Positions 35,391-51,557 of a stretch of 64,000 nt of DNA are shown piece by piece. The notes beneath the pieces were generated by a model. The model worked only from the letters and a program-made list of their open reading frames with translations, ran no database searches and had not been told where the DNA came from. How positions within the stretch are numbered: position 1 is the first letter of the stretch; each line of letters begins with the position of its first letter. Made by a program: the position numbers and the translations under genes. Origin of the DNA: Salinibacterium sp. PAMC 21357 (GTDB taxonomy: Bacteria > Actinomycetota > Actinomycetes > Actinomycetales > Microbacteriaceae); NCBI RefSeq assembly GCF_000247645.1, contig NZ_AHWA01000004.1, positions 1,116,001 through 1,180,000 of the forward strand, given 5' to 3'.

Positions 35391-35430
35391 CTTGTTGGTC
35401 GGTTTTTTGATCGGTGTTTGTTGGTTTAGT

Positions 35431-36282: not shown

Positions 36283-36424
36283 CCCTCGATTCTCCCACTT
36301 TCTACTGGCGGATGGTGTTCTCTTGGAGGCGAACCCCGGGGCGTCACCACAACGTGGGGGAGCGCTTGGTGAGGAACGTAAGATAACCTCGAATTTAGCT
36401 TATTGAAAAGATTTTGGGGATATT

Positions 36425-37024
36425 GTGATTGCAAGAACTAAGACCGTGAGCGTTATCGCAACCGCGATTGTGGCGTGCACATTGATGACTGGCTGCGCGT
36501 CTTCTGGAGCGAGCAGCGATCCGGAATCCTCATCGTCGGCCGAGGGCGGGATTGGAGTCGAGGAGAAGATCCTCAATGTGGTGGTAACGCTGCCCGCAAA
36601 CCTCTTCGAGGACACATCTGAAGAGGAAATCCACGCCCGCGCGGAAGGATCCGGCTACAAAGCGGTCGTCAACGACGACGGTTCGGTCGAGTACACCATC
36701 CCCAAATCGGTGCACGCGGAACTGATTGCTGAGATGGCCAGTGGCATAGACGAGAGTATCGCCGACACGCTGATCAGGGAAGCGCCTATCGAAGAGATTA
36801 CGCACGACGGCGAGTATTCCGCGTTCGCCATGACCGTTAACCGCGCGGCATTCGAGGAGTCGTTTTCCGCTGGGTTCGTTCCGATCACCTTGGGAACCCG
36901 GGCGATGTTTTACCAGTTGTTCGATGGCGTTTCTATAGATGATCGACGTGTCGTCGTGACCTACATCGATTCAGCTTCAGGAGAAGAGTTCGACACGTAC
37001 GTGCTCCCCGACGCTTTGGAGTAA
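36425..37024 (+). CDS. Putative secreted lipoprotein, 199 aa
   Basis: Starts with a basic residue-containing signal sequence and a lipobox LMTGC (Cys at about residue 20), followed by an Ser/Glu-rich linker and a folded domain of about 150 residues rich in acidic residues. No recognised family; similar orphan lipoproteins occur in Microbacteriaceae. The start is GTG at 36425. Function unknown. Confidence 0.75.
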   Translation: MIARTKTVSVIATAIVACTLMTGCASSGASSDPESSSSAEGGIGVEEKILNVVVTLPANLFEDTSEEEIHARAEGSGYKAVVNDDGSVEYTIPKSVHAELIAEMASGIDESIADTLIREAPIEEITHDGEYSAFAMTVNRAAFEESFSAGFVPITLGTRAMFYQLFDGVSIDDRRVVVTYIDSASGEEFDTYVLPDALE

Positions 37025-37061
37025 ACCTCGTCGCTGGCGGATGCTGGAACGGGCAGGCGAG

Positions 37062-37418
37062 CTAGCGGCGCCCGAGCTCCACGAGCTTGCGTTCGCGCAT
37101 TGCCAAGAACAGCGGGAAGGTGAACGCGAAGGCCGTGATGCCGGAGAGCACGATATAGAGCCAAGCGCGCTTCATCCCGAGGCGGCGCGCTTCGATGATG
37201 ATTAGGATGCTGCCCGCGACAGCCACCACGAGAAGGTCGACGCCGAGAGAGTTGACGGCCGGGCCGCTACCGAACCAATCGCCAAGATAATCGCGCATCT
37301 GCACGATTGCTAGAGCGTTGAAGATCCACGTGCCGACTAGGCCGATCAGCGAGAGGATCGCGAATGTGATCGCGCGTGAATTCCAGTGGCGAAGGATTCG
37401 AGCAGGTGGCTGCTTCAT
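37062..37418 (-). CDS. DUF2834-type membrane protein, 118 aa
   Basis: Three membrane helices (about residues 17-38, 59-76 and 86-105) in the DUF2834 arrangement, with a basic start MKQPPARILRHWNSR and a basic tail RERKLVELGRR. The longer open frame to 37688 runs into the LacI gene and a tandem repeat and is rejected; the ATG at 37418 begins the family-like part. Function unknown. Confidence 0.75.
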   Translation of the reverse strand: MKQPPARILRHWNSRAITFAILSLIGLVGTWIFNALAIVQMRDYLGDWFGSGPAVNSLGVDLLVVAVAGSILIIIEARRLGMKRAWLYIVLSGITAFAFTFPLFLAMRERKLVELGRR

Positions 37419-37480
37419 GACACCAGTGTGCACCCGCGCACCGCTGGAACGCGCAGCGACAGCATGAACCAGCACAAACA

Positions 37481-37510
37481 GCACAAACCGGCACAAACCG
37501 GCACAAACCG
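37481..37510 (+). repeat. Three perfect 10-base tandem repeats
   Basis: GCACAAACCG three times in a row, with degraded copies on the left (37462-37480). The array lies between the LacI gene stop and the DUF2834 start. It is a slippage-prone minisatellite; no function is evident. Confidence 0.85.
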
Positions 37511-37527
37511 GCATGGTGAAAGGCGAA

Positions 37528-38625
37528 CTAGCGCGAGGCTGCAGCTCCCGCGGTAGTGGCAGAGGTCGCGTCGCTTCCGGCGAGCCGAGCCGTCGACTCT
37601 CGCACAATGAGCTCTGCACGCAGTAGCACCGAGCTACCGGGGTCGGTTGACTCGTTGGAGCCCCGCTCGACTGCCTCAGCGACGGCAAGCTGCGCCATCC
37701 GCGTAATGGGCTGGCGAACGCTGGTGAGCGGAGGGTCGTACAGGTCAGCGAGGATGATGTCGTCGAAGCCGATCACGGAAACATCCTGCCCAACTTTGAG
37801 TCCGAGGTCACGAAGACCGCGACAGAATCCGAGCGCGGTCATGTCGTTGATCGCAACCACAGCCGTAGGGGCTGTTGCGGGGTCGGCGAACAGATCCTTT
37901 GCGGCGGCACGTCCTACCTCGGCCGCTTCAACATCACCGAAGAGGTCGGCGTCGAGGCCGGTCCAGTGCGGCATGTCGGCGACGGACAAGCCGGCAGCTT
38001 CAATGGCGTCGCAGTACCCCCGATAGCGTGCGGAGCGGTTGACCGAGCGAATCGACCCCGAAACAAAAGCGATTCGCGTGTGGCCGAGTTCGAGCAGGTG
38101 CGCTGTGGCAACTTGACCGCCCACATTGTTGTCGATGCTGATGCTCACGACTGAATCGGGGTCGTTCGGTTGCGCTGGTCGGTCGAAGGTCACTAGACGC
38201 AAGCCTTCAGCGATGACGTGACTGACGTGCTGGAGAGAGGGCAGTGAGGTGCACAGGATGATGCTGCGCACGCCGTCTTCCCACAACTCTTCGACATAGC
38301 GACGCTCGCGCTCGGGATCGCGCTCGCTGTTGCAGAGCAAAACGCTGCACCCCAATGCCAGTGCGGCGATCTCTACTTCGTGAGCGAATGCTCCCCAAAA
38401 CGGGTTACCGACCGAGGGCACAACGAGGCCAACGGTTTGTGTCTTGCCGTTGCGTAGCTGGCGCGCCGCACGGTTGGGGCGGTAGCCAAGTTCTGAAATC
38501 GCCGACTCGATACGCACTCGCGTTGCAGCGACCATTCGACCCTGTCGGTCGTTGAGGAAGTTGGAGACGGTGCTGGGGGACACCCCTGCGGCCTGAGCCA
38601 CATGCTGGATGGTTACTCGAGCCAC
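37528..38625 (-). CDS. LacI-family transcriptional regulator, 365 aa
   Basis: Probable local repressor of the divergent carbohydrate locus. The N-terminal helix-turn-helix TIQHVAQAAGVSPSTVSNFLN and the hinge helix are followed by a periplasmic-binding-protein-like effector domain (residues about 60-340). The GTG start has a strong AAGGAGGT ribosome-binding sequence. Two LacI-type half-palindromes lie in the spacer to the ABC transporter genes, one on the TSS side of the transporter promoter. The effector is probably an oligosaccharide or sugar acid. Confidence 0.93.
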   Translation of the reverse strand: MARVTIQHVAQAAGVSPSTVSNFLNDRQGRMVAATRVRIESAISELGYRPNRAARQLRNGKTQTVGLVVPSVGNPFWGAFAHEVEIAALALGCSVLLCNSERDPERERRYVEELWEDGVRSIILCTSLPSLQHVSHVIAEGLRLVTFDRPAQPNDPDSVVSISIDNNVGGQVATAHLLELGHTRIAFVSGSIRSVNRSARYRGYCDAIEAAGLSVADMPHWTGLDADLFGDVEAAEVGRAAAKDLFADPATAPTAVVAINDMTALGFCRGLRDLGLKVGQDVSVIGFDDIILADLYDPPLTSVRQPITRMAQLAVAEAVERGSNESTDPGSSVLLRAELIVRESTARLAGSDATSATTAGAAASR

Positions 38626-38905
38626 GTGACCTCCTTCGGTAGTTGACGATCCTGATGATCGCTGTTTCAGTGTAACGATTTATTAGCTTTCGGCAAATGT
38701 TTACTGAACCACCCGAAGCAAGTCTGACCTATTCAAATAAAATCTATTGACTCCACGAGACAGACTCGTCTATGGTCAGTGCATCGTTACACCGATTTCA
38801 CCCACCCCCCTAGGAAATCGGTCAGCAATCAAATGAGCCGACGACGACGTCGCGGAACGAAGGCACTGGAGCCGTCGCTCAATCTCACAGTGAGAGGACA
38901 TGCAC
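38626..38905. promoter_or_regulatory. Divergent control region of LacI and ABC transporter genes
   Basis: For the transporter operon a good sigma-70-type promoter is visible: TTGACT at 38747-38752, an 18-base spacer, TATGGT at 38771-38776. A LacI-type operator TGCATCGTTACA (38780-38791) sits at the expected transcription start. A related inverted half, TGTAACGATTTA (38671-38682), lies nearer the regulator gene. The inverted 9-mers TGTAACGAT and ATCGTTACA suggest two sites for one repressor, possibly with looping. Confidence 0.7.
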
Positions 38906-40204
38906 ATGGAAGTGAAGTCACGAATGCGCCGCACAGCATCGGTCGCGATGGTTGCCCTGTTGGGTTTCGGTCTCGTCGCCTGTTCAGCCGGAGAAGCGGA
39001 CGCTGATCTTAACCCCGACGAGGTTTCGGGCGAGATCAGCTTGCTCACCCCCATTTTTGAAGGAAGCCCCGGGCAAGACCTCCTCGAAGACGAGCTGCTC
39101 CCGCAGTTCTACGAGGAGTATCCGAACGTGAAGGTCAACGTCGACTACACGACGTACGGCAACCTCAACGAGAAGCTCACCACGGCCGTGGTCTCGGGAC
39201 TCGTTCCTGACGTAATGCTCATGGGCGTCGGCTGGATTGAAGCCTTCGCCGACAAAGGCGTGCTCGCCGATCTCGGCGAACTCGGCCTCAGCGAAGCTGA
39301 CCTCAAGGAGAGCTACACCGACGAGATCGTTGAAGCCGGCATGTGGGACGGCAACGTCTACGCTGTGCCGATCATGCTCGACACCCGCTTCGGAGTCGCT
39401 CGCATGGACATCCTCAAAGAAGCTGGCTACGACAGCCCGCCGTCATCGTGGGATGAGCTCATCGAAATCGCCGAAGCAACAACGGTGCGGTCTGGCAACG
39501 GCTCGCTTGAACGCGCTGGCTTCGACATGATGTCGCTGGATGCCCGTCAAGCCTTCGAGACGATTCTCTTCTCCGCCGGCGGTGAACTCTTCAATGAGGA
39601 TGCCACCGCACCCGCGTTCAATAGCGACGAAGGCGTTGCCGCGCTTGGCCTCATGGCTGACATGGTGAACAAGTACAAGGTCGAAGACATTGGCTTCACG
39701 TCGACGGACGACATCGTGAATCCGCTCATTAACGGCCGAGCCGCAATGGGAATCGCTCACAACAACCTGTGGACTCAGGCGATGGAAGCCGACTCCACCG
39801 TTCTCGACAACCTTGAACCGTTTGTGATCGAGGGTGAGGCATCCGGAATGTTCTTCGGGGGAACGTTGGCGACCGTTGCCAACAACTCCAAGAACCCGCA
39901 GGCGGCGCGTGCACTCCTCGAGTTCCTTTCCAGCCCGGATGCGGCGCTTGCCGCCAACGAACAGCGCGGTAACGTGCCGGCCCTGACCGAACTGCTCGAC
40001 TCTGACTACGTGCAGTCGAACCGTTTCGTGCAGTTCGCCATGGAGAACTTGGATGTCGCGCAGCGTGAAGGTGGCCCGTCGCAGTGGCTTGAGGTGCGCG
40101 GCGACTTCGCCCCGGCAGTTCAGGGCGCGCTTCTCGGCCAGAAAACTCCCCAAGAGGCGCTCGACGATCTTGCTGCTCTCGTGCAGACAGCAATAGACCG
40201 CTAG
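38906..40204 (+). CDS. Sugar ABC transporter substrate-binding lipoprotein, 432 aa
   Basis: Family 1 (ABC_SBP) carbohydrate-binding protein. A signal peptide ends in a lipobox GLVACS (Cys at about residue 26), after which the mature two-lobe fold spans to the C terminus (TPIFEGSPGQDLLEDELLPQFYEEYP, AMGIAHNNLW, EFLSSPDAALAAN). The second of two in-frame ATGs is chosen because GAGAGG is 8 bases before it. It heads the transporter operon; a hairpin follows that may keep its mRNA more abundant than that of the permeases. The ligand is inferred to be an oligosaccharide. Confidence 0.92.
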   Translation: MEVKSRMRRTASVAMVALLGFGLVACSAGEADADLNPDEVSGEISLLTPIFEGSPGQDLLEDELLPQFYEEYPNVKVNVDYTTYGNLNEKLTTAVVSGLVPDVMLMGVGWIEAFADKGVLADLGELGLSEADLKESYTDEIVEAGMWDGNVYAVPIMLDTRFGVARMDILKEAGYDSPPSSWDELIEIAEATTVRSGNGSLERAGFDMMSLDARQAFETILFSAGGELFNEDATAPAFNSDEGVAALGLMADMVNKYKVEDIGFTSTDDIVNPLINGRAAMGIAHNNLWTQAMEADSTVLDNLEPFVIEGEASGMFFGGTLATVANNSKNPQAARALLEFLSSPDAALAANEQRGNVPALTELLDSDYVQSNRFVQFAMENLDVAQREGGPSQWLEVRGDFAPAVQGALLGQKTPQEALDDLAALVQTAIDR

Positions 40205-40215
40205 TTCCTCCCCTG

Positions 40216-40246
40216 AGTGCCCGGGCGTCCAACCCGCCCGGGCACT
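40216..40246 (+). terminator. Intercistronic hairpin after the binding-protein gene
   Basis: Perfect 12-base stem AGTGCCCGGGCG / CGCCCGGGCACT with a seven-base loop, 12 bases past the stop of the binding protein and before the first permease. There is no T-run. It probably stabilises the upstream mRNA or partly terminates, raising binding-protein level over permease level. Confidence 0.8.
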
Positions 40247-40278
40247 ACCTCCCCAGACTTCAACCACACGAGGGCGTG

Positions 40279-41244
40279 ATGACCACTACAGAGCGACACC
40301 CCATTCGCGGCGCGGAAGCGGCAGCGGCAGCGAAGCAGGCTTCCCCATCCACCGCACCGAAGAAACGCAAGCGGATCAGTGCTGCCGAGAAAAAGCGGCG
40401 TCGCGCGGGCTGGCTGATGATTACGCCATCCGTCATTCATGTAGGGTTGTGGACGCTTATCCCGGTCATTGCGACCTTCTATCTTTCGTTCACTGACTAC
40501 GGAATCTTCGCGGCTCCGAAGTGGATCTGGTTCGACAACTACGTCGAAATGTTCAACGATGCCGTCTTCATGCAGTCCATCGGCAACACTATTTGGTACA
40601 CGTTCTGGACAGTGCCGGTATCGATGGCAGTAGCTGTCGTCGTGGCAGTGCTGCTGAACCAGGGCCTCAAGCTGCAAAAGTTCTACCGCACAGCGTTCTT
40701 CCTTCCGCAGGTCACCGCCACCGTCGCAATCGCGATGGTGTGGCTGTGGATTTTCAACCCGCAGTACGGCCTCCTCAACGCGATGCTCGAAACGATCGGG
40801 CTCCCCGGCCAGGCGTGGCTCGTTGACCCCAAGTGGGCGCTGCCGGCAGTGATTTTGGTCGGTGCGTGGCAGGGCATCGGTATCAAGATGCTCATCTACA
40901 TCGCGGCCCTGCAGAACATTGACGAATCGCTCTATGAGGCGGCATCGCTCGACGGAGCATCCTCGATTCGCAAGTTTTTCAGCATCACCGTTCCGATGCT
41001 CAAGCCGGCCACGTTCTTCGTCTTCATCATCTCGATCATCGGCGCCTTCCAAGTGTTCGACCAGATTTACGTGCTCACTGACGGTGGCCCGGCAAACGCC
41101 ACGACGATGATGACCTACGAGGTCTACCGCTCGGCATTCCAAGAATTCCGGATGGGAATGGCATCCGCTCAGTCGGTAGTGCTCTTCGCTTTCCTTCTTT
41201 TCGTCACTCTCATTAGCCGTCGCGTTACTAAAGAAGAGGACTAG
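40279..41244 (+). CDS. Sugar ABC transporter permease 1 (MalF/UgpA type), 321 aa
   Basis: Inner-membrane channel subunit of the CUT1 family. A basic cytoplasmic N terminus (about 50 residues, rich in Lys/Arg) precedes six membrane helices. The EAA loop EAASLDGASSIRKFFSITVPML contacts the ATPase. No ATPase gene is in the locus, as in many actinobacterial CUT1 systems that share one MsiK-like subunit. The GTG codon just before the chosen ATG is also possible. Confidence 0.94.
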   Translation: MTTTERHPIRGAEAAAAAKQASPSTAPKKRKRISAAEKKRRRAGWLMITPSVIHVGLWTLIPVIATFYLSFTDYGIFAAPKWIWFDNYVEMFNDAVFMQSIGNTIWYTFWTVPVSMAVAVVVAVLLNQGLKLQKFYRTAFFLPQVTATVAIAMVWLWIFNPQYGLLNAMLETIGLPGQAWLVDPKWALPAVILVGAWQGIGIKMLIYIAALQNIDESLYEAASLDGASSIRKFFSITVPMLKPATFFVFIISIIGAFQVFDQIYVLTDGGPANATTMMTYEVYRSAFQEFRMGMASAQSVVLFAFLLFVTLISRRVTKEED

Positions 41245-41246
41245 TG

Positions 41247-42182
41247 ATGACTCTCCCTACTATTAAGGCCCTCGCGATCAGCGAACAAGTCACCGTCGTG
41301 CCGCGCAAGCGCTGGTTTCACCACGCGAAGGGTCGCCAAGCGGCACTCATCAATGTGGCGCTCACTCTCGGCTCGATCACCATGCTGGTGCCGTTTCTGT
41401 GGATGGTGCTCACGAGTCTCAAATCACCGGCCGAGCTGGCCCAGTTTCCGCCGACGTTCTTTCCGCAAGAGTGGATGTTCAGCAACTACGCGGCGACTCT
41501 GGATGCTGCGCCATTCGGCCTCTACTTTCGCAACAGCTTTGTCATCGCCACCACTCACACCCTCATCACTGTCGTGTTGGGTTCGATGGCGGGGTATGCG
41601 CTGGCCCGTATTTACTTCAAGGGGCGGGAGGCGATCTTCCTCGCTTTCATCGCGATGCTGATGATCCCCACCTACACGAAGATCGTTCCGCAGTTCTTGC
41701 TCGTGAAGTTCATGCCCCTGTTCGGTGGCAACGATATCCTCGGCCAGGGCGGCAGCGGTTGGTTGGACACGTGGTGGGCACTCATCATTCCTGGTGGGCT
41801 GAGCGCATCCGCCATCTTCCTGTTCCGTCAGTTCTATTTGTCGCTGCCGAAGGACCTGGAAGAGGCGGCACGGATTGACGGCCTGGGCGAGTTCAGGATC
41901 TTCTCGCAGATTTATACGCCGCTCATCAAGCCGGCGATCGCGACCGTTGGGCTGCTGACGTTCCAAGAGAGCTGGAACAACTTCCTCTGGCCACTGCTCG
42001 TTACGACCAGTAGCGACCTGCGCGTGATTCAAGTGGGGCTTGCGGTCTTCCAGCAGCTCGACAACACGCAGTGGCAGTACCTGATGGCCGGAACCACGAT
42101 GGCGACAGTGCCCATGGTGATTCTGTTCATCTTTGCCCAGAAGTACTTCATTCAGGGTTTCACCAACGCCGGCATCAAGTAA
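41247..42182 (+). CDS. Sugar ABC transporter permease 2 (MalG/UgpE type), 311 aa
   Basis: Second channel subunit of the importer, with six membrane helices and an EAA loop EEAARIDGLGEFRIFSQIYTPLIKP. It starts right after the first permease gene (stop and alternative GTG start overlap), indicating coupled translation. The C terminus ends in QKYFIQGFTNAGIK, as is usual for MalG-like proteins. Acts with the lipoprotein at 38906. Confidence 0.94.
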   Translation: MTLPTIKALAISEQVTVVPRKRWFHHAKGRQAALINVALTLGSITMLVPFLWMVLTSLKSPAELAQFPPTFFPQEWMFSNYAATLDAAPFGLYFRNSFVIATTHTLITVVLGSMAGYALARIYFKGREAIFLAFIAMLMIPTYTKIVPQFLLVKFMPLFGGNDILGQGGSGWLDTWWALIIPGGLSASAIFLFRQFYLSLPKDLEEAARIDGLGEFRIFSQIYTPLIKPAIATVGLLTFQESWNNFLWPLLVTTSSDLRVIQVGLAVFQQLDNTQWQYLMAGTTMATVPMVILFIFAQKYFIQGFTNAGIK

Positions 42183-42277
42183 CGGCAACGCACGGTAGCC
42201 ACCCCGAACAACTGGCGGCACCGCACGAACCTTCGACAAACCAACACCCAACCAATAGATAGGCACGGTAGATAGAC

Positions 42278-43042
42278 ATGAGCATTGACCTCACCGGACG
42301 ACGCGCACTCGTAACAGGCGCAGGAGCAGGAATCGGCGCGGCCATCGCGAAAGCACTGGCGGCGGCGGGCGCTGACGTTGTGGTGCACTACGCCCACAGT
42401 GAAGCGGGAGCCACCGCGGTAAAGGAAGAGATCGAAGCGGGCGGGCATCGTGCGCTCGCCGTGCAGGCCGACCTCACCGACTCGGCGCAGGCAACGAAGT
42501 TGGTGGATGCCGCTGTCGAGTTTCTTGGTGGCCTCGACATCCTCGTCAACAATGCCGGGCACTTGGTGGGCCGCGCCACGATCACCGAGACCACGGATGA
42601 GCGCTGGAACGAGGTCATGGATGTGAACATCGCGAGCACCTTCTTCACGACTCGCCAGGCTCTCCCCGCGCTCGCGGAGTCGGAGCACGGCCGCATCATC
42701 ACGATGGCTTCGCTCGCTGCCGAGAACGGTGGCGGTGCTGGATCGGTTGTCTACGCCACCTCGAAGGCGGCCGTTGTTGGTTTCACTCGCGCGTTGGCCA
42801 AGGAAGTCGCGTCGAAGAAAATCACGGTGAACGCGGTAGCTCCTGGCTTCATTGGCGAGACTGCCTTCCACGAAACCTTCACCCCCGGCGAGGCTCAGAA
42901 GAACATTGTGGCGGGCATTCCGCTCGGTCGTGCTGGCACCGCTGGCGACGTTGCTGACGTTGCTCTGTTCTTGGCATCCGACCTCTCGTCGTATGTCACG
43001 GGCCAGGTCGTCGACATCAACGGAGGCCTCAACTTCCGATGA
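42278..43042 (+). CDS. SDR oxidoreductase of the carbohydrate locus (DEH reductase-like), 254 aa
   Basis: Classical SDR with TGAGAGIG at about residues 13-20, NNAGH, catalytic Ser in MASLAAEN region, YATSK (Tyr-x3-Lys) and C-terminal TGQVVDINGG. Its segments LVGR after NNAG and TAFH before the C terminus resemble those I recall for reductases of 4-deoxy-5-hexoseulose uronate, an alginate-lyase product; this is from memory and not verified. It ends in an ATGA overlap with the first heparinase-like gene, tying it to polysaccharide breakdown. Confidence 0.85.
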   Translation: MSIDLTGRRALVTGAGAGIGAAIAKALAAAGADVVVHYAHSEAGATAVKEEIEAGGHRALAVQADLTDSAQATKLVDAAVEFLGGLDILVNNAGHLVGRATITETTDERWNEVMDVNIASTFFTTRQALPALAESEHGRIITMASLAAENGGGAGSVVYATSKAAVVGFTRALAKEVASKKITVNAVAPGFIGETAFHETFTPGEAQKNIVAGIPLGRAGTAGDVADVALFLASDLSSYVTGQVVDINGGLNFR

Positions 43043-44823
43043 ATTCTGTTCCGCAGCAGCCGGGCGGGTGGTGGCATGACTATGTCTGCCCCACCCACGG
43101 CATCGAGTTGGGTGCCCGTGAGGGTAACGAGTTTCTGTGCAGCTACGGCTGTCGCCTCACGGGTGGCAAGGTCGAAGCGGCCTGGCTCGCGCTTGAACAT
43201 CAAGCCCTGGCTCGGGCCGCCCGGGTTGCTGCGCGAAGGTACGCGCTGCACGGCGAGGCCGCCGATCGTGAACGGGCCGTCGAACTCGTTCTCGACTACT
43301 CCGCTCTCTACGTGCAGATCTCAGCCGGCGGCTGGAGCGACAAGAGCGAATCATGGATGCTGCAGGGCAAGCTTTTTGCTCAGGCTCTCTCCGAGGCACA
43401 GTGGGCCGTCGGGTTCGCGGATGCGATCATCACGCTGGGGCCGCTTCCCGAACTTCGCGGGTCGACCGACCTCAACCGCACGCTCAACGGGCTGGCCGAA
43501 ACGCTCGCCGAGTCTCGCCGCATCCTCGTGGAAGATCGCGACGATCAGCGCAGCAACTACACCGCGTGGCTGGATGCCGCAGCCCGGTTGGTAGCGCTGG
43601 CCTTGCACACGCTGGGCGGGCCGGCGGTCGCACCGCAGTGTGCGGCGGTGGTCTTCGACCATATGCAGCTCGCGGTACGTTCCGATGGCTGGGAGTGGGA
43701 GGCATCCACTTACTATCACGTGTTCGTTCTGCGCGCCTATCTTCTGGGTCTGCGCGGAATCGAGCTCGCGGAGCTGCCGGCCGACGCCGTCGACACGCTG
43801 CGTCGCATGGTCGACGTGCTGGTCTCGATCGCGGCGCCCGACGGTTTCTTGCCCGCGCTGCACGACGGCCCCTACGACCGGGTCGCGATGCACCGCGAAG
43901 TGCTCGAAATTTGCACGCTGGGAGCGCAGCTCTTCAGCGATACCGGCCTGGCGACGGTGCAGTCGTGGGTCGTTGAACGACTTGGTGCTGACCACGATGG
44001 TCTCGAGTGGATGCTCGATGGCTGGTTTGTGGGAGCACCGCTTGACCGCGCACCGGTGGTGGTCGGTTCGCGAGCATTCGAGGATGCCGGGTATGTCGTG
44101 TTGCGTGATTCACGCAACCGCATGGTCGGCATCCTCGATGCTGGACCGCACGGCGGAGCCCACGGTCACTTCGACAAGCTCGCGCTCTACCTTTATGGCG
44201 ATGGCCCGAAGTGGCAGCCGGCTCCGGCCGTGCCACCGTATGGGCACGCGCTTCGTCATGCGTACTACGCGCGCACGATCGCGCATCCGACCGTTCGCGT
44301 TGATGGTGTTGATCAAGTCGAAGCAAGTGCCGACATCACCGAGTGGGATGCTGCGGCCTCCCGGGTTTCGGCGTTGACGACCACTGCGATCCGCGGCGTG
44401 CAACTGCGACGCACGGTGCAGCTCGGCGATGGCTTCCTTGTGGATGTCGTGACCGTTCGCTGCGACGACGGCGAACCGCACGACATTTCCCTCGGCCTCC
44501 GCCCGGCGCTCGACTTCAGCGTTGTGGTGGCGGGTGACTCGTGGCGTTCGACCTGGGGCGCTGCGCTGACCGGCTGGCATCGCGCATCCGGCGACGCCAC
44601 ACTCGAACTGGCCGCGGGCCGCGGACCCTCGGATGACCCGAGTCGACTGCAGCACGTCGGCAACTGGTCGAGCACGGCCAGCACCGCCACCTTCGTGAGC
44701 GTGTACTCCTTCGACCCCGAGCTCAGCCTCGACACTGTCGAAGCCGACTTCTCTGACGCCGCAGTGCGGATCACGATCCCCACTGCAGCCCCCGACCCAT
44801 CACTAATAGAGGTAGGACTGTGA
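43039..44823 (+). CDS. Heparinase II/III-like protein (putative polysaccharide lyase), 594 aa
   Basis: No signal peptide, so probably cytoplasmic. A conserved N-terminal Cys/His segment (YVCPTHGIEL, FLCSYGC) suggests a metal site; residues about 60-330 form an alpha-helical toroid with the candidate catalytic motif SNYTAWLDA, and the rest is a beta-sandwich with GPHGGAHGHFDKLALYLYG, the His motif typical of the heparinase II/III fold. Such enzymes cleave uronate-containing oligosaccharides by beta-elimination. Overlaps SDR (ATGA) and the next lyase-like gene (GTGA). Confidence 0.82.
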   Translation: MNSVPQQPGGWWHDYVCPTHGIELGAREGNEFLCSYGCRLTGGKVEAAWLALEHQALARAARVAARRYALHGEAADRERAVELVLDYSALYVQISAGGWSDKSESWMLQGKLFAQALSEAQWAVGFADAIITLGPLPELRGSTDLNRTLNGLAETLAESRRILVEDRDDQRSNYTAWLDAAARLVALALHTLGGPAVAPQCAAVVFDHMQLAVRSDGWEWEASTYYHVFVLRAYLLGLRGIELAELPADAVDTLRRMVDVLVSIAAPDGFLPALHDGPYDRVAMHREVLEICTLGAQLFSDTGLATVQSWVVERLGADHDGLEWMLDGWFVGAPLDRAPVVVGSRAFEDAGYVVLRDSRNRMVGILDAGPHGGAHGHFDKLALYLYGDGPKWQPAPAVPPYGHALRHAYYARTIAHPTVRVDGVDQVEASADITEWDAAASRVSALTTTAIRGVQLRRTVQLGDGFLVDVVTVRCDDGEPHDISLGLRPALDFSVVVAGDSWRSTWGAALTGWHRASGDATLELAAGRGPSDDPSRLQHVGNWSSTASTATFVSVYSFDPELSLDTVEADFSDAAVRITIPTAAPDPSLIEVGL

Positions 44824-46883
44824 CCAACACCACTGACACCACGACCCCCACCGCGGAACACGCGGCGACGCCAATGCCCACGACAGCATCAGCCTGGACG
44901 CCAGCCTCGTCAGCGACGGGCCGCGCGATGCTCATCGGCGATCGCGAGCAGCAGTTGCGCGGCGAACTTGATAGCAGCAGGAGCGCGCAGTTTCGGCGGC
45001 TGCTCGAGGAGTGTGAGCGCGCGAAGGGGATGGAACTTCCGCAGGAACACCCGCTGGCATCCATCACCTATTTCGGGCCGGGCTCGGCAAACCTCGCCCT
45101 CGCGTATCGTCTGACCGGTCAGGAGGCGTACCTCGAAGAGTTGCGTCGGTGGTTGGCGCCGCCGCTGTCGTTCCCGCACTGGGGCAAGGCGAATCTGCCC
45201 GACCACGACCTCGATGCCGGCTGGATTCTGCACGGGCTGTCGCTCGCGTATTCGTGGGCTGGCGACGCGCTGCACCCCGAAGAGAAGCAGGCCCTCGAAG
45301 ACAAGCTTTTGCTGCAGGGCCAGCGCATGTACGAGTTCGCTGTGGAGAAAGAGGGCGGATGGTGGTCGTCGTCGTACTGGCAGAACCACAACTGGATTTG
45401 CTACGCGGGCCTCGCGACCGCCGGCTACGCCCTGCAAGAGAAGTACCCCGAAGCGAAGGCTTGGACTGAGCGCGCTAAAGAGAACTTTGCCCTCGTTCTC
45501 GACTCGCTTCCCGACGACGGTTCCAACAACGAGGGTGTCGTCTACTGGCGCTACGGGGTGCCGTGGATCGCGAGCTACCTTGACGTGCTGCGGGACCAAG
45601 AAGGCATCGACTGGTTCAACCGCGGCACCTATTTGAAGGAAACCTTCTGGTACCGCCTCTACCAAGCGGCTCCCGATCTGGAACGCATCGTTGACCATGG
45701 CGACTGCCACGACCGCCGCAGCGGGCATCCGCTCGCCCTCTATTACAAGCTCGCCGCCGAATACCGCATTCCGCAGGCGCAGTGGTTGGCCAACAAGGTA
45801 TCGACCGAGTTCTACTGGCGCGAAGCGTACGAGAGTGGAGTGCGCCCCGGCGTTCGCCCCGAGGCGTACCAAGAACTGCTCTGGCTCGACCCGACGGTTG
45901 AGCCGGCCGGCCCGGAAACTCTCCCGCCGAGCAAGTACTTCGAAGATCTCGGACTCGTCGTCGGGCGCAGCTCGTGGGATGAACAAGCGAGCCTCGTCTC
46001 GTTCAAAGCATCACCGGGTGGCGGCCACAAAGCGTGGGATCAGTCGCACCGCCAGCGCAAGGAGAACGGCTGGGTCACGCTCAACGCGGGACACCACCAC
46101 CCCGACTCGGGCGCGTTCGTGTTCCTTGGGAACGGCTCGTATTTGGCGATCGACGAAGGCTATTCGTCGCGCAAACTCACTGAGCACCACAACTCGATTC
46201 TGATCGACGGCAACGGCTTCGTGAATGAAGACCGGTACCACGTGTTCGAAGAACTGGCCGAGGAGTTCACGGCCGAGATTCTGACGACAACGATCAAGGA
46301 TGGCTGGACGCATGCGGTCAGCGAGTCTTCCGCGATGTACGACCGCGACCTTGGCGTCACGCGGGTTCGCCGTCACCTCGTGCTTACGCCCGGCGGAACC
46401 CTCGTGATCGCCGACGACCTCGCCGCCGATCAGCCCCGCACCTGGACGTGGCTGCTGCAAACCGACAACGCGCCCGTTGCCCTCGGCGACAAGCGGTGGC
46501 GAGCGGATGCCGGTCACGGTGTCATGCCGATCGCTGCGCTCGACGACAATGCCGCCAGTCAGATTGTCGAAACGGCCGTGCACGCTAACCCCACGTCATC
46601 CACGCCCAGCCTGGCGATTAGCAAGAAGCAGCACACGCTCAAGCGCGTGAGTGAGCCGACGACGAGTGCACGCTTCGTGACGGTGCTCGAGTCGCGTCGC
46701 TGGGATGACACTGCCCCGGCGAGCATCCGTTACGACGTCGCTGCCGGCGGAGTTCGTGTGGAGATCGAGCGCGACGGCGTGACCGAAACCGTATCGTTGG
46801 GCTTCGATGGCGACGCTCCCACGCTGGGCGCAACGGCCGTCGTGGGCGAAGGATTCCAGGGGAGCACGAGTACGCAACGATGA
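44820..46883 (+). CDS. DUF4962 / heparinase II/III family protein (putative lyase), 687 aa
   Basis: A Thr/Ala-rich N-terminal tail of about 35 residues without a signal peptide is followed by a DUF4962-type alpha/alpha barrel (residues about 40-380), with SYWQNHNWICYAG, the Asn-His pair seen in this fold's active sites. The heparinase II/III beta-sandwich has HHHPDSGAFVFLGNG at about 422-436. It differs from its neighbour in domain make-up, so the two are not simple duplicates. The start is GTG at 44820. Substrate is unknown; a uronate polysaccharide is inferred. Confidence 0.85.
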   Translation: MTNTTDTTTPTAEHAATPMPTTASAWTPASSATGRAMLIGDREQQLRGELDSSRSAQFRRLLEECERAKGMELPQEHPLASITYFGPGSANLALAYRLTGQEAYLEELRRWLAPPLSFPHWGKANLPDHDLDAGWILHGLSLAYSWAGDALHPEEKQALEDKLLLQGQRMYEFAVEKEGGWWSSSYWQNHNWICYAGLATAGYALQEKYPEAKAWTERAKENFALVLDSLPDDGSNNEGVVYWRYGVPWIASYLDVLRDQEGIDWFNRGTYLKETFWYRLYQAAPDLERIVDHGDCHDRRSGHPLALYYKLAAEYRIPQAQWLANKVSTEFYWREAYESGVRPGVRPEAYQELLWLDPTVEPAGPETLPPSKYFEDLGLVVGRSSWDEQASLVSFKASPGGGHKAWDQSHRQRKENGWVTLNAGHHHPDSGAFVFLGNGSYLAIDEGYSSRKLTEHHNSILIDGNGFVNEDRYHVFEELAEEFTAEILTTTIKDGWTHAVSESSAMYDRDLGVTRVRRHLVLTPGGTLVIADDLAADQPRTWTWLLQTDNAPVALGDKRWRADAGHGVMPIAALDDNAASQIVETAVHANPTSSTPSLAISKKQHTLKRVSEPTTSARFVTVLESRRWDDTAPASIRYDVAAGGVRVEIERDGVTETVSLGFDGDAPTLGATAVVGEGFQGSTSTQR

Positions 46884-47524
46884 CATCACCGAAGAGAACC
46901 AAGCGCCGCACGCCGCGGTGGGAGCGCAGCATGCTGACCGCGCTCACCTACCCGGGCAACATTTTTCTGGGTTCGCTTGCAGTGCTGGTTCTCTCGCTCG
47001 GCGTCATCACGGTGCTCCCGGCCGCGATCGCTCTCGCTCGAGCCTTCGCGCGCTGGATTGTCGAGAACGACGACAGGGTATTCACCAACACCTTTCGAGA
47101 GTTTCGCGACACCTGGCGCAGAACCCTCGGCCTCGGCGTCATCGCGACCGTGGTCCTCGCCGTCATAGTCGGCGACGGAGTTTTCTTGGCTTATCAGCTT
47201 GCTCAGGGCGGCGGTTCGATTGCGCTGATGTTGAGCGCGGCCGTCATCCCGGTGGCCGCCGGCGTGTGCGTGCTCTTCATCGCCACGACCGCTGCCGCGA
47301 CCCTCAGCACTGAAGCGGATGCTCGCACCTGGGTTCGTGAGGGATTTGTATTGATGTTGCAGCATCCGCGTCGCGCGCTCTTCGTCTCGTTCACGGTTGC
47401 AGTGACTCTCGTGGTGTCGATTCTGCTGCCGACCATCGCGCCCTTCGCTTCAATCGCCCTGCCGGTCTACGTGGGCGTGCGGGCCTGGGGCCCGAAGCCT
47501 CCCGTCAACGACGAACAGGATTAG
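46880..47524 (+). CDS. DUF624 (YesL-like) membrane protein, 214 aa
   Basis: About five membrane helices with the family pattern GVITVLPAAIALARAFARW and NTFREFRDTWRRTL. DUF624 proteins such as YesL are often encoded in loci for pectin or other plant polysaccharides, but their biochemical role is not established. The ATG overlaps the lyase-like gene stop (ATGA), so it is part of the operon. The MFS gene follows 4 bases after its stop. Confidence 0.85.
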   Translation: MTSPKRTKRRTPRWERSMLTALTYPGNIFLGSLAVLVLSLGVITVLPAAIALARAFARWIVENDDRVFTNTFREFRDTWRRTLGLGVIATVVLAVIVGDGVFLAYQLAQGGGSIALMLSAAVIPVAAGVCVLFIATTAAATLSTEADARTWVREGFVLMLQHPRRALFVSFTVAVTLVVSILLPTIAPFASIALPVYVGVRAWGPKPPVNDEQD

Positions 47525-47528
47525 GGGA

Positions 47529-48728
47529 GTGGCCAAACGCCCGCCGATCTCGTTTGCGCTGAAGGTTCTCTATGGCGATACCTTCACGATGGCCGTCGGT
47601 TTTTACATGCTCGTGCCGTTGCTGGCGTATCACTTCTTGCAAGATCTGGCCCTCACGATTGCGGTTGTCGCTGCCCTAACGGCGCTGCGCACGGCAGCCC
47701 AAAACGGGATGATGCCGATCGCCGGGTGGGTCGCTGATCGCATCAACTTTCGCCGCGCCATCCTGATCGGGGTATTGGTTCGGGCGCTGGGCTTTGCGAT
47801 GCTCGGCACCGTCGAGTCGATTCCGCTGCTCGTGGTCGCGTCGATCTTTACCGGCCTGGGCGGTGCGCTGTTTCACCCCGCTAGCTATTCGGCCTATGCC
47901 GCCCTCACGACCGGCGCCGACCGGGTGCGGGTGTATTCGACTCGCGAAGTCGTGAGCAATGTCGGTTTCATCGTGGGTCCCATCATCGGCGGGTTCCTTG
48001 CCGGCGCCGACTTTGCGTTCGTGAGTTTGTCGGCGGCCGGGATGTTCGTGATCGCGTTCATCATCAGCGCATTCGGTTTGCCGCACCCGAGCGATGAAGA
48101 ACGGGCCCGCACCCCACCGCGCTTGAGGGTGGCCTTCGCGGATGCCGCATTCCTGCGGTACTGCGCGCTCGTGGCGGGCACCGCGGTGCTCATCGCTCAG
48201 TTCTATCTCGTCATCCCGTTTCGGGCCGCCGAGTTCACGTCGGGCCCGTCCGATCTCGGCTTCATTTACTCGGGCGCCGCGATCGTGATGGTGCTCACGA
48301 TGCTGCCGCTTACGGGTGCCGCCAACCGTTTTCTGCCCGACCGCGTCACCCTCGCCGGCGCGACAACGTGTCTGGGTGTCGGCGTCGGCATCATGGGTCT
48401 CTCCACGAATCTGCTCGGGATGCTCGTGGGCGTTGCCGTGTTCATCGTCGGCCAAATGCTCGCGCAGCCCGTGCTCAATGCCACCGTTTCACGCTTCGCC
48501 CCCGAAGGCTCCGTCGCTAGCTACTTCGGAGTGCAGGGCCTCGCCAACGCGATCGGTGGCGTCGTGGGAAGCAGCTCGGCGGGTGTGATCTATGCGCTCG
48601 CCGGCTCGGGCGAACCCGGAGCATCCTGGGTCTGGCTGACGTACCCCGCGTGGGCGATCGTCGTTGCGGTGATGTTTGTGGCGTTTGGGCCGCGGCGGGC
48701 GTCAGATTCGAGAGGTCGGGCCGTCTAA
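47529..48728 (+). CDS. Major facilitator superfamily transporter, 399 aa
   Basis: Twelve predicted membrane helices, with the MFS loop 2-3 motif in GWVADRINFRRAILIG and a second copy-like motif AANRFLPDRVTLAG between helices 8 and 9. It resembles drug/metabolite MFS exporters of the MdtH type. The start is GTG at 47529 with AGGGGAG before it. Placement at the end of the carbohydrate operon suggests import or efflux of a related metabolite. Confidence 0.9.
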   Translation: MAKRPPISFALKVLYGDTFTMAVGFYMLVPLLAYHFLQDLALTIAVVAALTALRTAAQNGMMPIAGWVADRINFRRAILIGVLVRALGFAMLGTVESIPLLVVASIFTGLGGALFHPASYSAYAALTTGADRVRVYSTREVVSNVGFIVGPIIGGFLAGADFAFVSLSAAGMFVIAFIISAFGLPHPSDEERARTPPRLRVAFADAAFLRYCALVAGTAVLIAQFYLVIPFRAAEFTSGPSDLGFIYSGAAIVMVLTMLPLTGAANRFLPDRVTLAGATTCLGVGVGIMGLSTNLLGMLVGVAVFIVGQMLAQPVLNATVSRFAPEGSVASYFGVQGLANAIGGVVGSSSAGVIYALAGSGEPGASWVWLTYPAWAIVVAVMFVAFGPRRASDSRGRAV

Positions 48729-48788
48729 AAGAGAAAGACGACTTCACGCTGAAACCTACTCTCACCGGCAGTTTTAGGTTCCGATGGC

Positions 48789-48794
48789 TACAAT
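48789..48794 (+). promoter_or_regulatory. Candidate -10 element for a leaderless transcript
   Basis: TACAAT ending 7 bases before the ATG at 48802, placing the transcription start on the initiation codon. No clear -35 hexamer and no Shine-Dalgarno sequence are visible. Confidence 0.4.
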
Positions 48795-48801
48795 GCGGTA
48801 C

Positions 48802-48981
48802 ATGGGTAAGTTCACAGACAAGGTTCGGTCGATGTTTGGGCGTTCACGACCGATCCCTAGAGAAGACGCTGACGAGATCGACGACTGGGTGAATGAAGGC
48901 GGAGCCCCTAACCCCGAGGGTCCGCCACGTGTCATCGACATCGACAACGGCAGCGGTATTGGCAATGGCAAGAAAAAATAG
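48802..48981 (+). CDS. Small acidic hypothetical protein, 59 aa
   Basis: A short protein starting MGKFTDKVRSMFGRS with an acidic, Asn/Gly/Pro-rich remainder (DADEIDDWVNEGG) and a basic tail ending GKKK. It is hydrophilic and probably disordered. The frame opens earlier at 48784. TACAAT at 48789-48794 lies 7 bases before the ATG at 48802, the spacing expected of a leaderless mRNA. No known family. Confidence 0.55.
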   Translation: MGKFTDKVRSMFGRSRPIPREDADEIDDWVNEGGAPNPEGPPRVIDIDNGSGIGNGKKK

Positions 48982-49031
48982 CTCCCGCCCGTGGGTCGGC
49001 AGGAAGCGATTCGGCCGGCATTAGGCCGCGA

Positions 49032-49685
49032 CTAGCGCCGGTCGCCCCACCACTGCGGGCTCGCGGCGAGCACCGCATGCACGGCTCCGTCGAGGTCGTC
49101 GAGGTCGCCGGTGAGGAGCCACGCTTCGGCCGCAGCAACCGTGCCGCCGGCGGCGTAGGCGACAGCCATCGCGAACGTCGTTTCGGAAAGCGGGGCGAGT
49201 GCGGCAGGCACGATTTCTGGATGCCGCCGCAGATGATCCGCGAGAATCTGTCGCGCAGGCTCGATGAGCACCGATCGCAGCCGGCCGCTTAGGCTGCCGC
49301 TGGCCGCCATCCGATAGAGCGTTGCGTGGGTGCGTACGTGGCTAAGGAAGACGCGAGTGGGGCCGGCGAAAACATGGTTCGTCGTCGAGAAGGTCGTGGC
49401 TGATGCGTTCGCGTCTGGGGCAGGCTTGGCGGCGTGGGAGAACGCAGCAGCATCCGCCGCGTCGAGTAGATCCCCGAATTGCTCGATGGCGTCAGCCAGC
49501 TCGGCGTGCAGAGCAGTAGCGATGAGGTCAACGGGGTCGCAGGCGTGGCGGTAGAAAGTGTCGCGGCTGATGCCGGAGGCGTTCGTGATGTCAGTGACGG
49601 AGATGGTGGCAATGTCGCGCTGCTCCGCTAGAGAGTAGGCCGCCGCGACGAGGGCGTCGCGAGAGCGGCGAGTGCGAACATCCAT
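49032..49685 (-). CDS. TetR-family transcriptional regulator, 217 aa
   Basis: N-terminal helix-turn-helix (residues about 6-50; TISVTDITNASGISRDTFYRHA) and a ligand-binding C-terminal domain rich in Ala. The ATG at 49685 (MDVRTRRSRD) is preferred over an upstream start. The gene diverges from an alcohol dehydrogenase; the spacer has a perfect 20-base palindrome that is almost certainly its operator. It is likely to repress both genes until an inducing alcohol or aldehyde binds. Confidence 0.92.
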   Translation of the reverse strand: MDVRTRRSRDALVAAAYSLAEQRDIATISVTDITNASGISRDTFYRHACDPVDLIATALHAELADAIEQFGDLLDAADAAAFSHAAKPAPDANASATTFSTTNHVFAGPTRVFLSHVRTHATLYRMAASGSLSGRLRSVLIEPARQILADHLRRHPEIVPAALAPLSETTFAMAVAYAAGGTVAAAEAWLLTGDLDDLDGAVHAVLAASPQWWGDRR

Positions 49686-49711
49686 AACCGAACTGTAGCG
49701 GAATAGACCAC

Positions 49712-49731
49712 TATCTGACACCTGTCAGATA
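49712..49731. promoter_or_regulatory. TetR operator palindrome
   Basis: TATCTGACA CC TGTCAGATA, perfect 9-base arms with a two-base centre, lying midway in the spacer between the TetR gene and the dehydrogenase gene. Size and position fit a TetR-family operator. Confidence 0.88.
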
Positions 49732-49793
49732 ACACCGATAGGGTGGAGGTGAGGCTACAAACCTCAGCCTCGCCCCTAGAGAGGATTCAGAAT

Positions 49794-50831
49794 ATGCAAG
49801 CAGTGAAGCTCGTAAGTCCAGGCAAGATGGAACTTCAAGACATTCCGGTGCCAGAGATCGGCCCCGATGAGATTTTGGTCAAGGTTGCGGGCGCAGGACT
49901 GTGCCACTCCGACCTCCACGTTCTGCACATGGGCGAAGAGTGGCCCTTCTTCGGCGGAACCGTCGGCCACGAAGGTGCCGGCTGGGTCGAAAAAGTGGGC
50001 TCCGCACTGGAGGGGTACACCAAGGGCGACGCCGTTCTCGTGAGCGTGGTGTGGGCCTGCGGCCACTGCCGCGCGTGCATTGAAGGTCGCGACAACGAGT
50101 GTGAAGTCAACGGCAGCCGCATGCAATTCCCCACCACCCCGGGCCTCGGCCCAGACGGCGCCATGGCCGAGTACATGGTCGTGAAGGCCCGCCACCTCGA
50201 CAAGATTGGTGACCTCGACCCGATCCAGGCAGCACCGCTCGCGGATGCCGGCGTCACCCCCATGCACGCCATCAACAGTGCACGTTCGCGCCTCACTCCC
50301 GGCTCGACCGTCGTCGTGATCGGTATTGGCGGCCTCGGTCACCTTGGACTCCAGATTCTGAAGGCCACGACTGGCGCCCGCATCATCGCCCTCGACACCG
50401 ATAACGAACGTCTCGAGCTTGCCCGCAAGCTCGGCGCAGATCTCGTGCTCAAGAGCGACGGCGCTGCAGCCCAGCGCATCCTCGACGAAACCAACCAGTA
50501 CGGTGCGGATGCCGTCTTCGACTTCGTCGGCGTCCAGCCCACCGTCGACCTCGCGACAGCGGTCATCGCTCCCGGCGGAATGCTCCGCTTTGTGGGCCTC
50601 GGTGGCGGACAGTTCGACTACCTCGTTGGTGTCGGCCAGGCCCTCCCGTGGGGAACCGACGTTCAGCTTTCGTATGGCGGAACGCGTGCCGATCAACTCC
50701 AGGTGATCGCACTCGCCCAGCAGGGCAAGCTCGGCGTTGAGGTGACGCAATACCCGCTGGCTGACTTCCAGACAGCATTCGATGACCTCGAAGCTGGGCG
50801 CATTACCGGCCGCGCGGTACTCATTCCGTAA
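49794..50831 (+). CDS. Zinc-dependent alcohol dehydrogenase, 345 aa
   Basis: Medium-chain NAD(P)-dependent dehydrogenase resembling Rhodococcus ADH-A type secondary-alcohol dehydrogenases. Catalytic zinc ligands lie in GLCHSD (Cys) and GHEGAG (His-Glu); the structural zinc Cys cluster is CGHCRACIEGRDNEC; the Rossmann motif is GIGGLGHLG at about residues 177-185. AGAGAGGA precedes the ATG at 49794; the longer frame upstream is unlikely. Regulated by the divergent TetR protein by inference. Confidence 0.94.
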   Translation: MQAVKLVSPGKMELQDIPVPEIGPDEILVKVAGAGLCHSDLHVLHMGEEWPFFGGTVGHEGAGWVEKVGSALEGYTKGDAVLVSVVWACGHCRACIEGRDNECEVNGSRMQFPTTPGLGPDGAMAEYMVVKARHLDKIGDLDPIQAAPLADAGVTPMHAINSARSRLTPGSTVVVIGIGGLGHLGLQILKATTGARIIALDTDNERLELARKLGADLVLKSDGAAAQRILDETNQYGADAVFDFVGVQPTVDLATAVIAPGGMLRFVGLGGGQFDYLVGVGQALPWGTDVQLSYGGTRADQLQVIALAQQGKLGVEVTQYPLADFQTAFDDLEAGRITGRAVLIP

Positions 50832-50854
50832 CGGCTAACGCGCACTGCGACGAC

Positions 50855-50888
50855 CCGCGGCCCTCACCACACCCGGTGGGGGCCGCGG
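50855..50888 (+). terminator. Long hairpin after the alcohol dehydrogenase gene
   Basis: A 14-base stem CCGCGGCCCTCACC / GGTGGGGGCCGCGG (one G-T pair) with a six-base loop, 24 bases after the stop codon, followed only by TTCGTT. Probable terminator. Confidence 0.75.
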
Positions 50889-50933
50889 TTCGTTACTCGG
50901 CTGACGCTAAGCCCGCCCCCGCAGAATGGTGAA

Positions 50934-51491: not shown

Positions 51492-51498
51492 GGAACGG

Positions 51499-51557
51499 TT
51501 TAGTGCCGCACAAATCAGCCATAAAAGGCTATAATGGCTGAATATTGCGGCACTAAA
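51499..51557. promoter_or_regulatory. Nested palindromic operator/promoter of hipBA
   Basis: Outer 12-base arms TTTAGTGCCGCA (51499-51510) and TGCGGCACTAAA (51546-51557) are perfectly inverted. Inside them are 7-base arms CAGCCAT (51516) and ATGGCTG (51534). A consensus -10 TATAAT (51530-51535) overlaps the inner arm. This is the layout expected for autorepression by a HipB-type antitoxin. Confidence 0.88.

Follow-up and report, generated by a model that had tools for sequence, protein, structure and literature searches.

A LacI-linked cassette in Salinibacterium sp. PAMC 21357 and its relatives probably serves uptake and intracellular breakdown of alginate-type oligouronates

Introduction

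Which substrate feeds a gene cassette that places a sugar importer beside two lyase-like proteins without signal peptides? The question is raised by nine genes at positions 37528–48728 of a 64,000-nucleotide stretch of the 3.1 Mb Salinibacterium sp. PAMC 21357 genome (the window, on contig NZ_AHWA01000004.1, here C3; coordinates are those of the window unless C3 is named). A first-pass annotation made from the window sequence alone had listed a LacI-family regulator, a CUT1-type ATP-binding cassette (ABC) importer without its ATPase, a short-chain dehydrogenase/reductase (SDR), two different heparinase II/III-fold proteins, a DUF624 protein and a major facilitator superfamily (MFS) transporter. 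All nine genes lie where it placed them, and the Pfam families agree. It also held that the substrate could not be named, and on this point we differ: an alginate-type oligouronate can be named with fair confidence, because relatives of the cassette carry a polysaccharide lyase family 7 (PL7) alginate lyase, a 2-keto-3-deoxy-6-phosphogluconate (KDPG) aldolase and a 2-keto-3-deoxygluconate (KDG) kinase in the same gene run. The assignment to uronate oligosaccharides with intracellular cleavage is well supported, and we consider the cassette likely to be a LacI-controlled operon that takes up and breaks down oligosaccharides from a uronate homopolymer. Alginate, an acidic polysaccharide produced by brown algae and certain bacteria, is the most likely one. 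Statements credited to papers, cited by PMC number, reflect excerpts of those papers.

Results

The regulator gene (37528–38625, minus strand; Pfam LacI and Peripla_BP_3) reads leftward, and eight genes on the plus strand read rightward, encoding a solute-binding lipoprotein (SBP, 38900–40204), two ABC permeases (PermA, 40276–41244; PermB, 41244–42182), the SDR (42278–43042), the lyase-like proteins HepA (43039–44823) and HepB (44820–46883), the DUF624 membrane protein (46880–47524) and the MFS transporter (47529–48728; Pfam MFS_1). The overlapping stop and start codons described by the first-pass annotation from the SDR through DUF624 amount to 4 bp at each of three junctions (SDR/HepA, HepA/HepB and HepB/DUF624), and a 4 bp gap precedes the MFS gene. 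Its statement that neither lyase-like protein has a signal peptide was borne out by 15-residue Kyte–Doolittle means over the first 60 residues, the measure used here in place of a dedicated signal-peptide program: neither protein has a hydrophobic N-terminal stretch, the best means being 0.61 (HepA) and 0.47 (HepB) versus 2.33 for the lipoprotein SBP.

To place the cassette among its relatives, homologous loci were collected by a HepB-alignment scan with one genome per species; the best 80 of 97 confirmed loci are referred to as the 80 loci, and their cassette gene content was scored by tblastn with the window proteins. All seven core genes (LacI, SBP, both permeases, SDR, HepA and HepB) occur together in 70 of the 80 loci, and the grouping is more than chance. 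Because the loci are related to one another, such counts are not independent events. At above 60 bits, the SDR and HepA were each found in 74 loci, both permeases in 73, and SBP and LacI in 72 each, the LacI relative lying beside the cassette. Eight of the ten incomplete loci sit at contig ends or on short contigs (L088, L108, L114, L122, L123, L124, L125 and L128); the remaining two lack the importer (L090) or a good HepA (L129). DUF624 exceeds 60 bits in 36 loci and is detectable at any score in 68. The MFS transporter, present at more than 45% identity in only 15 of the 80, was dropped as a core member.

Named genomes with the cassette include members of Salinibacterium, Cryobacterium, Streptomyces, Kribbella and Chloroflexota. 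Among 199 related genomes, a close HepB (at least 63% identity) is present in 14 and distant ones only in three more; in a sample of 396 genomes from the phylum, HepA relatives with about 41% identity occur in two genomes other than the study genome, and weaker matches in eight. HepB is found in 9 of 27 genomes of the genus, so gain or loss of the cassette has occurred. One genome (G179, with its cassette in L043) also encodes three further distant HepB-like proteins at 27–30% identity, in other contexts (L048, L049 and L050).

The genes flanking the cassette in relatives point to a substrate. In five Streptomyces and Nocardiopsis loci (L079, L082, L083, L084 and L121), a single rightward run comprises SBP, permeases, SDR, HepA, HepB, DUF624 where detected, a beta-helix protein, a PL7 alginate lyase, KDPG aldolase and KDG kinase, and two Cryobacterium loci (L068 and L127) read HepB–DUF624–KDPG aldolase–KDG kinase. 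In a tblastn count of neighbours (E of at most 1e-12, with the source loci counted), PL7 was found beside 12 of the 80 loci, PL8 beside 31, PL6 beside 7 and a protein combining a carbohydrate-binding module (CBM32) with a beta-helix beside 9; at least one of these four adjoins 50 loci. Further neighbours were an AXE1 esterase (35), a GDSL esterase relative (29), the beta-helix protein (41; no PL6 match), a KDG kinase-like gene (15 or 16, depending on the query) and KDPG aldolase (11), with kinase and aldolase standing as a pair beside the cassette in 11 loci. PL7 beside 12 loci compares with about 0.06 expected from PL7 density in 246 presumed Streptomyces genomes, genome size being taken as 8.9 Mb.

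These identities rest on Pfam matches: PL7 alginate lyase in L079, PL8 and AXE1 in L080, GDSL and beta-helix proteins in L102, Chondroitinase_B/PL6 in L087, F5/8 type C (CBM32-type) plus beta-helix in L065, and, in L130, a neighbouring protein with both Alginate_lyase (PF05426) and Hepar_II_III_C. Seven of the 12 PL7 genes were checked and all seven were confirmed (L079, L066, L075, L076, L078, L084 and L114), as were the aldolase in L082 and L068, a PfkB kinase in L082 and PL8 in L117. The PL7 gene lies upstream, downstream or at a distance, depending on the locus, and in L075 and L078 part of a CBM32 match falls in the same open frame. The CBM32 of the L065 protein, a relative of the Isoptericola CBM32/beta-helix gene product, has its best matches among the CBM32s of alginate lyases. 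Should the alginate reading hold, the PL8 and two esterases in the Streptomyces and Kribbella form of the locus would suggest that it serves acetylated alginate of the bacterial type. In L063 (12619–16662), L064 and L066, DUF624 is followed by a protein of about 1350 residues in which only an fn3 domain was recognised.

HepA (Pfam Hepar_II_III_C and Hepar_II_III_N; predicted structure with a predicted local distance difference test score, pLDDT, of 92.1) appears to be a PL17-like cytoplasmic oligouronate lyase. Both lyase-like proteins were placed by Pfam, NCBIfam, and PDB profile and fold comparison rather than by CAZy's own models. With a HepA profile from 25 relatives, the top seven PDB sequences are all PL17 alginate lyases (1.7e-21 to 1e-14), PL12 following from 2.3e-12, and the HepA relative in the Chloroflexota locus L130 matches the NCBIfam oligoalginate lyase at 1.2e-24, far below the cut-off. 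The Tyr225-Tyr226 pair and the HxH motif of HepA align with PL17, and Asn173-Tyr174, both invariant in 25 sequences, align on the PL17 Asn-His pair. In PL15 and PL17 the catalytic His serves guluronate (G)-type substrates, and Tyr alone can handle mannuronate (M) (PMC11921355); with Tyr174 in place of His, HepA is therefore predicted to be M-only. Residues 17–38 of HepA also hold a conserved CxxH...CxxxC pattern, possibly a metal site.

HepB (Pfam DUF4962) is predicted to be a PL15-like cytoplasmic oligouronate lyase related to dermatan sulfate epimerase (DSE), acting on both M- and G-type units. Its Hepar_II_III_C match scores 23.8 bits, just under the 24-bit cut-off, or 25.5 with the neighbouring pieces. 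The predicted structure (pLDDT 86.7) is good apart from residues 1–33, and the start codon is uncertain because the first ~31 residues are absent from eight of nine aligned relatives and modelled with low confidence. Across 32 sequences, Asn189, His190, Tyr242, His425, His427 and Asp429 do not vary. The catalytic residues of the PL15 oligoalginate lyase Atu3025 are His311 and Tyr365 (PMC12088678). In a phmmer alignment Tyr242 pairs with Tyr365 and His190 falls one column off His311; our residue claims for HepB therefore rest on the Asn-His pair as such. HepB would keep an Asn-His dyad and a catalytic Tyr.

The SBP (Pfam SBP_bac_1), whose hydrophobic N-terminus ends in a lipobox-like LVAC, and the two permeases (both Pfam BPD_transp_1; PermA UgpA/MalF-like and PermB UgpE/MalG-like, each under NCBIfam cut-offs) would form a CUT1 importer of the kind an alginate cluster needs for oligosaccharides. 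A solved-structure search with the SBP returned general sugar-binding proteins, none named for alginate. Among 99 ABC ATPase matches in the genome, one (C3:350487–351560) exceeds the cut-off of NF008653 (PRK11650.1), which we take to be the MsiK/UgpC family, and is the candidate shared ATPase. DUF624 may be a MusI-like importer accessory, matching the NCBIfam MusI family at 32.7 bits, far below the cut-off of 160; nothing useful on MusI or DUF624 appeared among the literature matches listed.

The SDR (Pfam adh_short), proposed to be a reductase of 4-deoxy-L-erythro-5-hexoseulose uronate (DEH), has a TGxxxGxG motif, named in PMC8778563, and Ser145, Tyr159 and Lys163, all invariant in 18 sequences. 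The nine cassette genes include no ATPase, KDG kinase or KDPG aldolase; the first-pass annotation had noted the absence of the latter two from the locus and suggested looking for them in the genome, where a KDG kinase-like and a KDPG aldolase gene indeed lie side by side on C3 (1011201–1012049 and 1012162–1012692). Both are over Pfam cut-offs and below NCBIfam cut-offs, as is, on the NCBIfam side, a KdgR-like IclR regulator beside them. KDPG aldolase is found in all 14 cassette carriers among the 199 relatives versus 98 of 185 others (Fisher p 2e-4), and within the genus in 9 of 9 carriers versus 11 of 18 others (p 0.04), kinship being ignored in both comparisons.

Regulation by LacI is suggested by a putative operator. 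A degenerate palindrome, NRGTGYAWCGWTRCACYN, scores at least 13/16 in 70 of 70 scored gaps between LacI and SBP (the window and 69 loci; the other 11 loci lack LacI or SBP, or do not have the two divergent and less than 700 bases apart), whereas 339 of 350 random segments of equal length score 12 or less and the remaining 11 may include overlaps with true sites. A search of these gaps for near-perfect palindromes had missed the window operator, which the degenerate pattern recovered. A position weight matrix (PWM) trained on these 70 sites detects 179 sites scoring at least 12 bits across the 80 loci, 69 of them in by construction, against 2 in Markov-resampled sequence. In the window, the strong operator at 38777–38794 scores 25.4 bits by a matrix whose training included it, and a weaker site at 38668–38685, outside the training set, scores 16.5 bits.

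Further sites lie outside the training set: second or third sites in 65 of 69 LacI–SBP gaps, two in the LacI–SDR gap of L090, sites before PermA in eight loci and two before the CBM32/beta-helix gene in each Isoptericola locus (L061 and L062). Both Chloroflexota loci, from metagenome-assembled genomes (L129 and L130), each have three sites before LacI, which there runs in the same direction as the cassette; regulator and operator are therefore conserved across phyla. Two stray sites were also found, one within HepA of L059 that looks like chance and one in L078 that has no named target.

Discussion

Taken together, these genes outline a route that would begin outside the cell with the release of alginate fragments, in Salinibacterium perhaps by other organisms. 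The fragments would be imported by the SBP and two permeases, as their families suggest, powered by a shared MsiK/UgpC-type ATPase encoded elsewhere. In the cytoplasm, the two signal-less lyases HepA and HepB would cleave them by beta-elimination, a step that their relatedness and conserved residues predict, and the SDR would reduce the resulting unsaturated monouronate, DEH, to KDG. Pyruvate and glyceraldehyde 3-phosphate would then be formed by KDG kinase and KDPG aldolase, whose genes are present elsewhere in the study genome and inside the gene run in some relatives.

Several observations weigh against an alginate assignment, among them the matches of HepA and HepB to heparin lyases and DSE described below. 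None of PL7, PL8, PL6 or the CBM32 protein adjoins 30 of the 80 loci, all five named Salinibacterium loci among them; no PL7 was found in the study genome and no PL6 over cut-off in the 27 genomes of the genus, the search being limited to these two families, PL7 in the study genome only. The kinase/aldolase region of the study genome has no credible operator in the PWM scan (best 5.6 bits). Across the 246 presumed Streptomyces genomes, HepB occurs in 17, PL7 in 63 and both in one, against 4.4 expected (P(X<=1) 0.04). In that single genome (G794) PL7 lies about 2 kb from HepB, and the tie between PL7 and the cassette is therefore one of physical linkage, not of co-occurrence. The SDR is not specifically close to the DEH reductase A1-R, with A1-R' ranking only 21 of 275 PDB sequences in the SDR profile search. 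HepA is an atypical member of its proposed family as well: Tyr174 replaces His202 of PL17, leaving the PL17 catalytic set incomplete, and that His is conserved in alginate lyases of five families (PMC12088678). PF05426, which we take to be the N-terminal domain of PL17 members, was also not detected in HepA by the Pfam scan. Finally, actinobacteria made up 5.7% of 88 strains isolated on alginate plates, but Proteobacteria and Bacteroidetes are the groups given as able to grow on alginate alone, with no actinobacterial isolates among those named in the excerpt (PMC7874173). This result is compatible with scavenging of oligomers or argues against alginate use.

The His missing from HepA lends some weight to a different substrate, namely a uronate other than alginate, homopolymeric or acetylated (oligomers of glucuronan or of xanthan-like or other exopolysaccharides), that would pass through the same import, exolytic cleavage and KDG route. 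PL8 stands beside 31 loci, and the only one of the 31 that was searched against solved structures, that of L092, best matches xanthan lyase at 490 bits; AXE1 and GDSL esterases in 35 and 29 loci point to an acetylated polymer. Microbial alginate is itself usually O-acetylated (PMC12336832), though, and PL8 does not exclude alginate: Aly16-1, a Streptomyces PL8 with less than 30% identity to characterised PL8 enzymes, prefers M-rich alginate and also cuts glycosaminoglycans (GAGs) and xanthan (PMC11596371). Six of its seven published residue positions are in register in the PL8 of L092, L101, L117, L119 and L124, and one to five in the other 26 of 31. This residue agreement is suggestive only, and for L092 the xanthan-lyase match counts against equivalence to Aly16-1. 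With PL7 beside 12 loci, five of which hold it in one run with the whole pathway, we regard this other-uronate substrate as rather unlikely. Use of pectin or galacturonan was dropped as a candidate, there being no pectin gene among the nine cassette genes (no search for KduI was made).

A GAG or heparosan locus, in which heparinase-like enzymes would cut imported unsaturated oligosaccharides, draws on the superfamily itself. In a single-sequence search HepA falls closest to PL12 heparinase III (4.8e-6, ahead of PL17 at 3.7e-4), and by fold PL12 (3.0e-19) is nearly level with the best match, PL17 Alg17c (E 1.7e-19; template-modelling score, TM, 0.69). The only NCBIfam matches of the two proteins, both far below cut-off, are the heparin-sulfate lyase HepC for HepA and the heparin lyase HepB for our HepB. 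HepB is closest to DSE and is related to PL35 GAG lyases. Set against this, known GAG clusters carry glycoside hydrolase family 88 (GH88) enzymes (PMC5430744), and GH88 has no match in the study genome and one marginal match in the 27 genus genomes, in a genome without HepB; nor is a sulfatase or amino-sugar gene present among the nine cassette genes. We consider a GAG substrate very unlikely.

The most specific challenge concerns HepB alone, which might be a C5-epimerase, or a mixed epimerase-lyase, that converts guluronate to mannuronate in imported oligoalginate before an M-only HepA finishes the chain. Human DSE leads for HepB by single sequence, profile (1.6e-33) and fold (1.4e-31, TM 0.78), ahead of Atu3025, and HepA lacks the His tied to G-type substrates (PMC11921355). 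Atu3025 is almost as close (2.9e-27, second by profile; TM 0.74), however, and catalytic residues are common to the lyases and epimerases with this fold (PMC11848413), so sequence cannot separate the two activities. We prefer a lyase because the cassette is simplest to explain with monomer release, and hold epimerisation before cleavage to be highly improbable.

Read as an alginate-type oligouronate cassette, the locus has close counterparts. In the Vibrio alginate cluster, the cytoplasmic PL17 pair VaAly17A/VaAly17B (PMC12336832) likewise consists of two tandem signal-less toroid-fold lyases, for which finishing oligoalginate in the cytoplasm was demonstrated and is here proposed; unlike that pair, the proteins described here come one from a PL17-like and one from a PL15/DSE-like lineage, are encoded alongside a CUT1 importer and LacI, and occur in Actinomycetota and Chloroflexota. 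Sphingomonas sp. A1, with exolyase A1-IV and DEH reductase A1-R, has ABC import, an exolyase, an SDR reductase and the KDG route in common with the cassette, whereas A1-R lies far from the import and degradation cluster (PMC8778563); in the present cassette the SDR gene stands between those for importer and lyases, and the locus encodes no ATPase. The PL17 oligoalginate lyases Alg17c and AlgL17 are the closest solved HepA relatives by profile and, narrowly, by fold, from which HepA differs in Tyr174 for His202, the undetected PF05426 and an identity of about 17–18% to Alg17c in the fold alignment. For HepB the closest by profile and fold are PL15 Atu3025 and human dermatan sulfate epimerase 1, at about 19–20% identity. 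A Streptobacillus GAG cluster resembles the cassette in combining an importer that depends on an SBP with genes for PL12, an SDR, a kinase and an aldolase, and has in addition GH88 and a sulfatase, both absent from the cassette (PMC5430744).

The first-pass annotation had seen in the locus its best candidate for an undescribed pathway. This stands in part: the predicted reactions are those of known alginate-type oligouronate catabolism, so that novelty seems to lie not in the chemistry but in the combination of genes, in two lyase lineages that appear uncharacterised and in the phyla that host them. Literature coverage extended to titles and the starts of abstracts of open-licence PMC papers. 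Among the matches listed, no description of this cassette, or of alginate use through it in Actinomycetota, was found, which is weak evidence of absence; likewise no paper there concerns alginate use by Salinibacterium, although five contain both words, with few mentions in each.

If correct, this assignment would give a substrate to a cassette of Salinibacterium, Cryobacterium, Streptomyces, Kribbella and Chloroflexota genomes, with carriers predicted to be consumers of alginate fragments. It would also offer a residue-based prediction for two lyase lineages, in which His would indicate action on G and M, and Tyr in its place action on M only, together with a conserved operator usable for regulon searches in further genomes and a near bacterial relative of human DSE.

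Additional features of the window

Elsewhere in the window, dnaA is split over two frames (9883–11297), the PF00308 ATPase domain (positions 1–136 of 162) falling in one open reading frame and the PF08299 C-terminal domain in another, overlapping one; since dnaA is essential, the split is probably a sequence error. Downstream of the cassette, at 51570–53260, a helix-turn-helix gene and a HipA-like kinase gene that overlap by 1 bp form a HipBA-type toxin–antitoxin pair, which two Salinibacterium relatives (L037 and L051) lack in the interval from the cassette to the next conserved gene. Third-position GC content is about 0.69–0.80 across 35400–51500, which covers the cassette and its neighbours, compared with mostly 0.55–0.66 nearer the origin.

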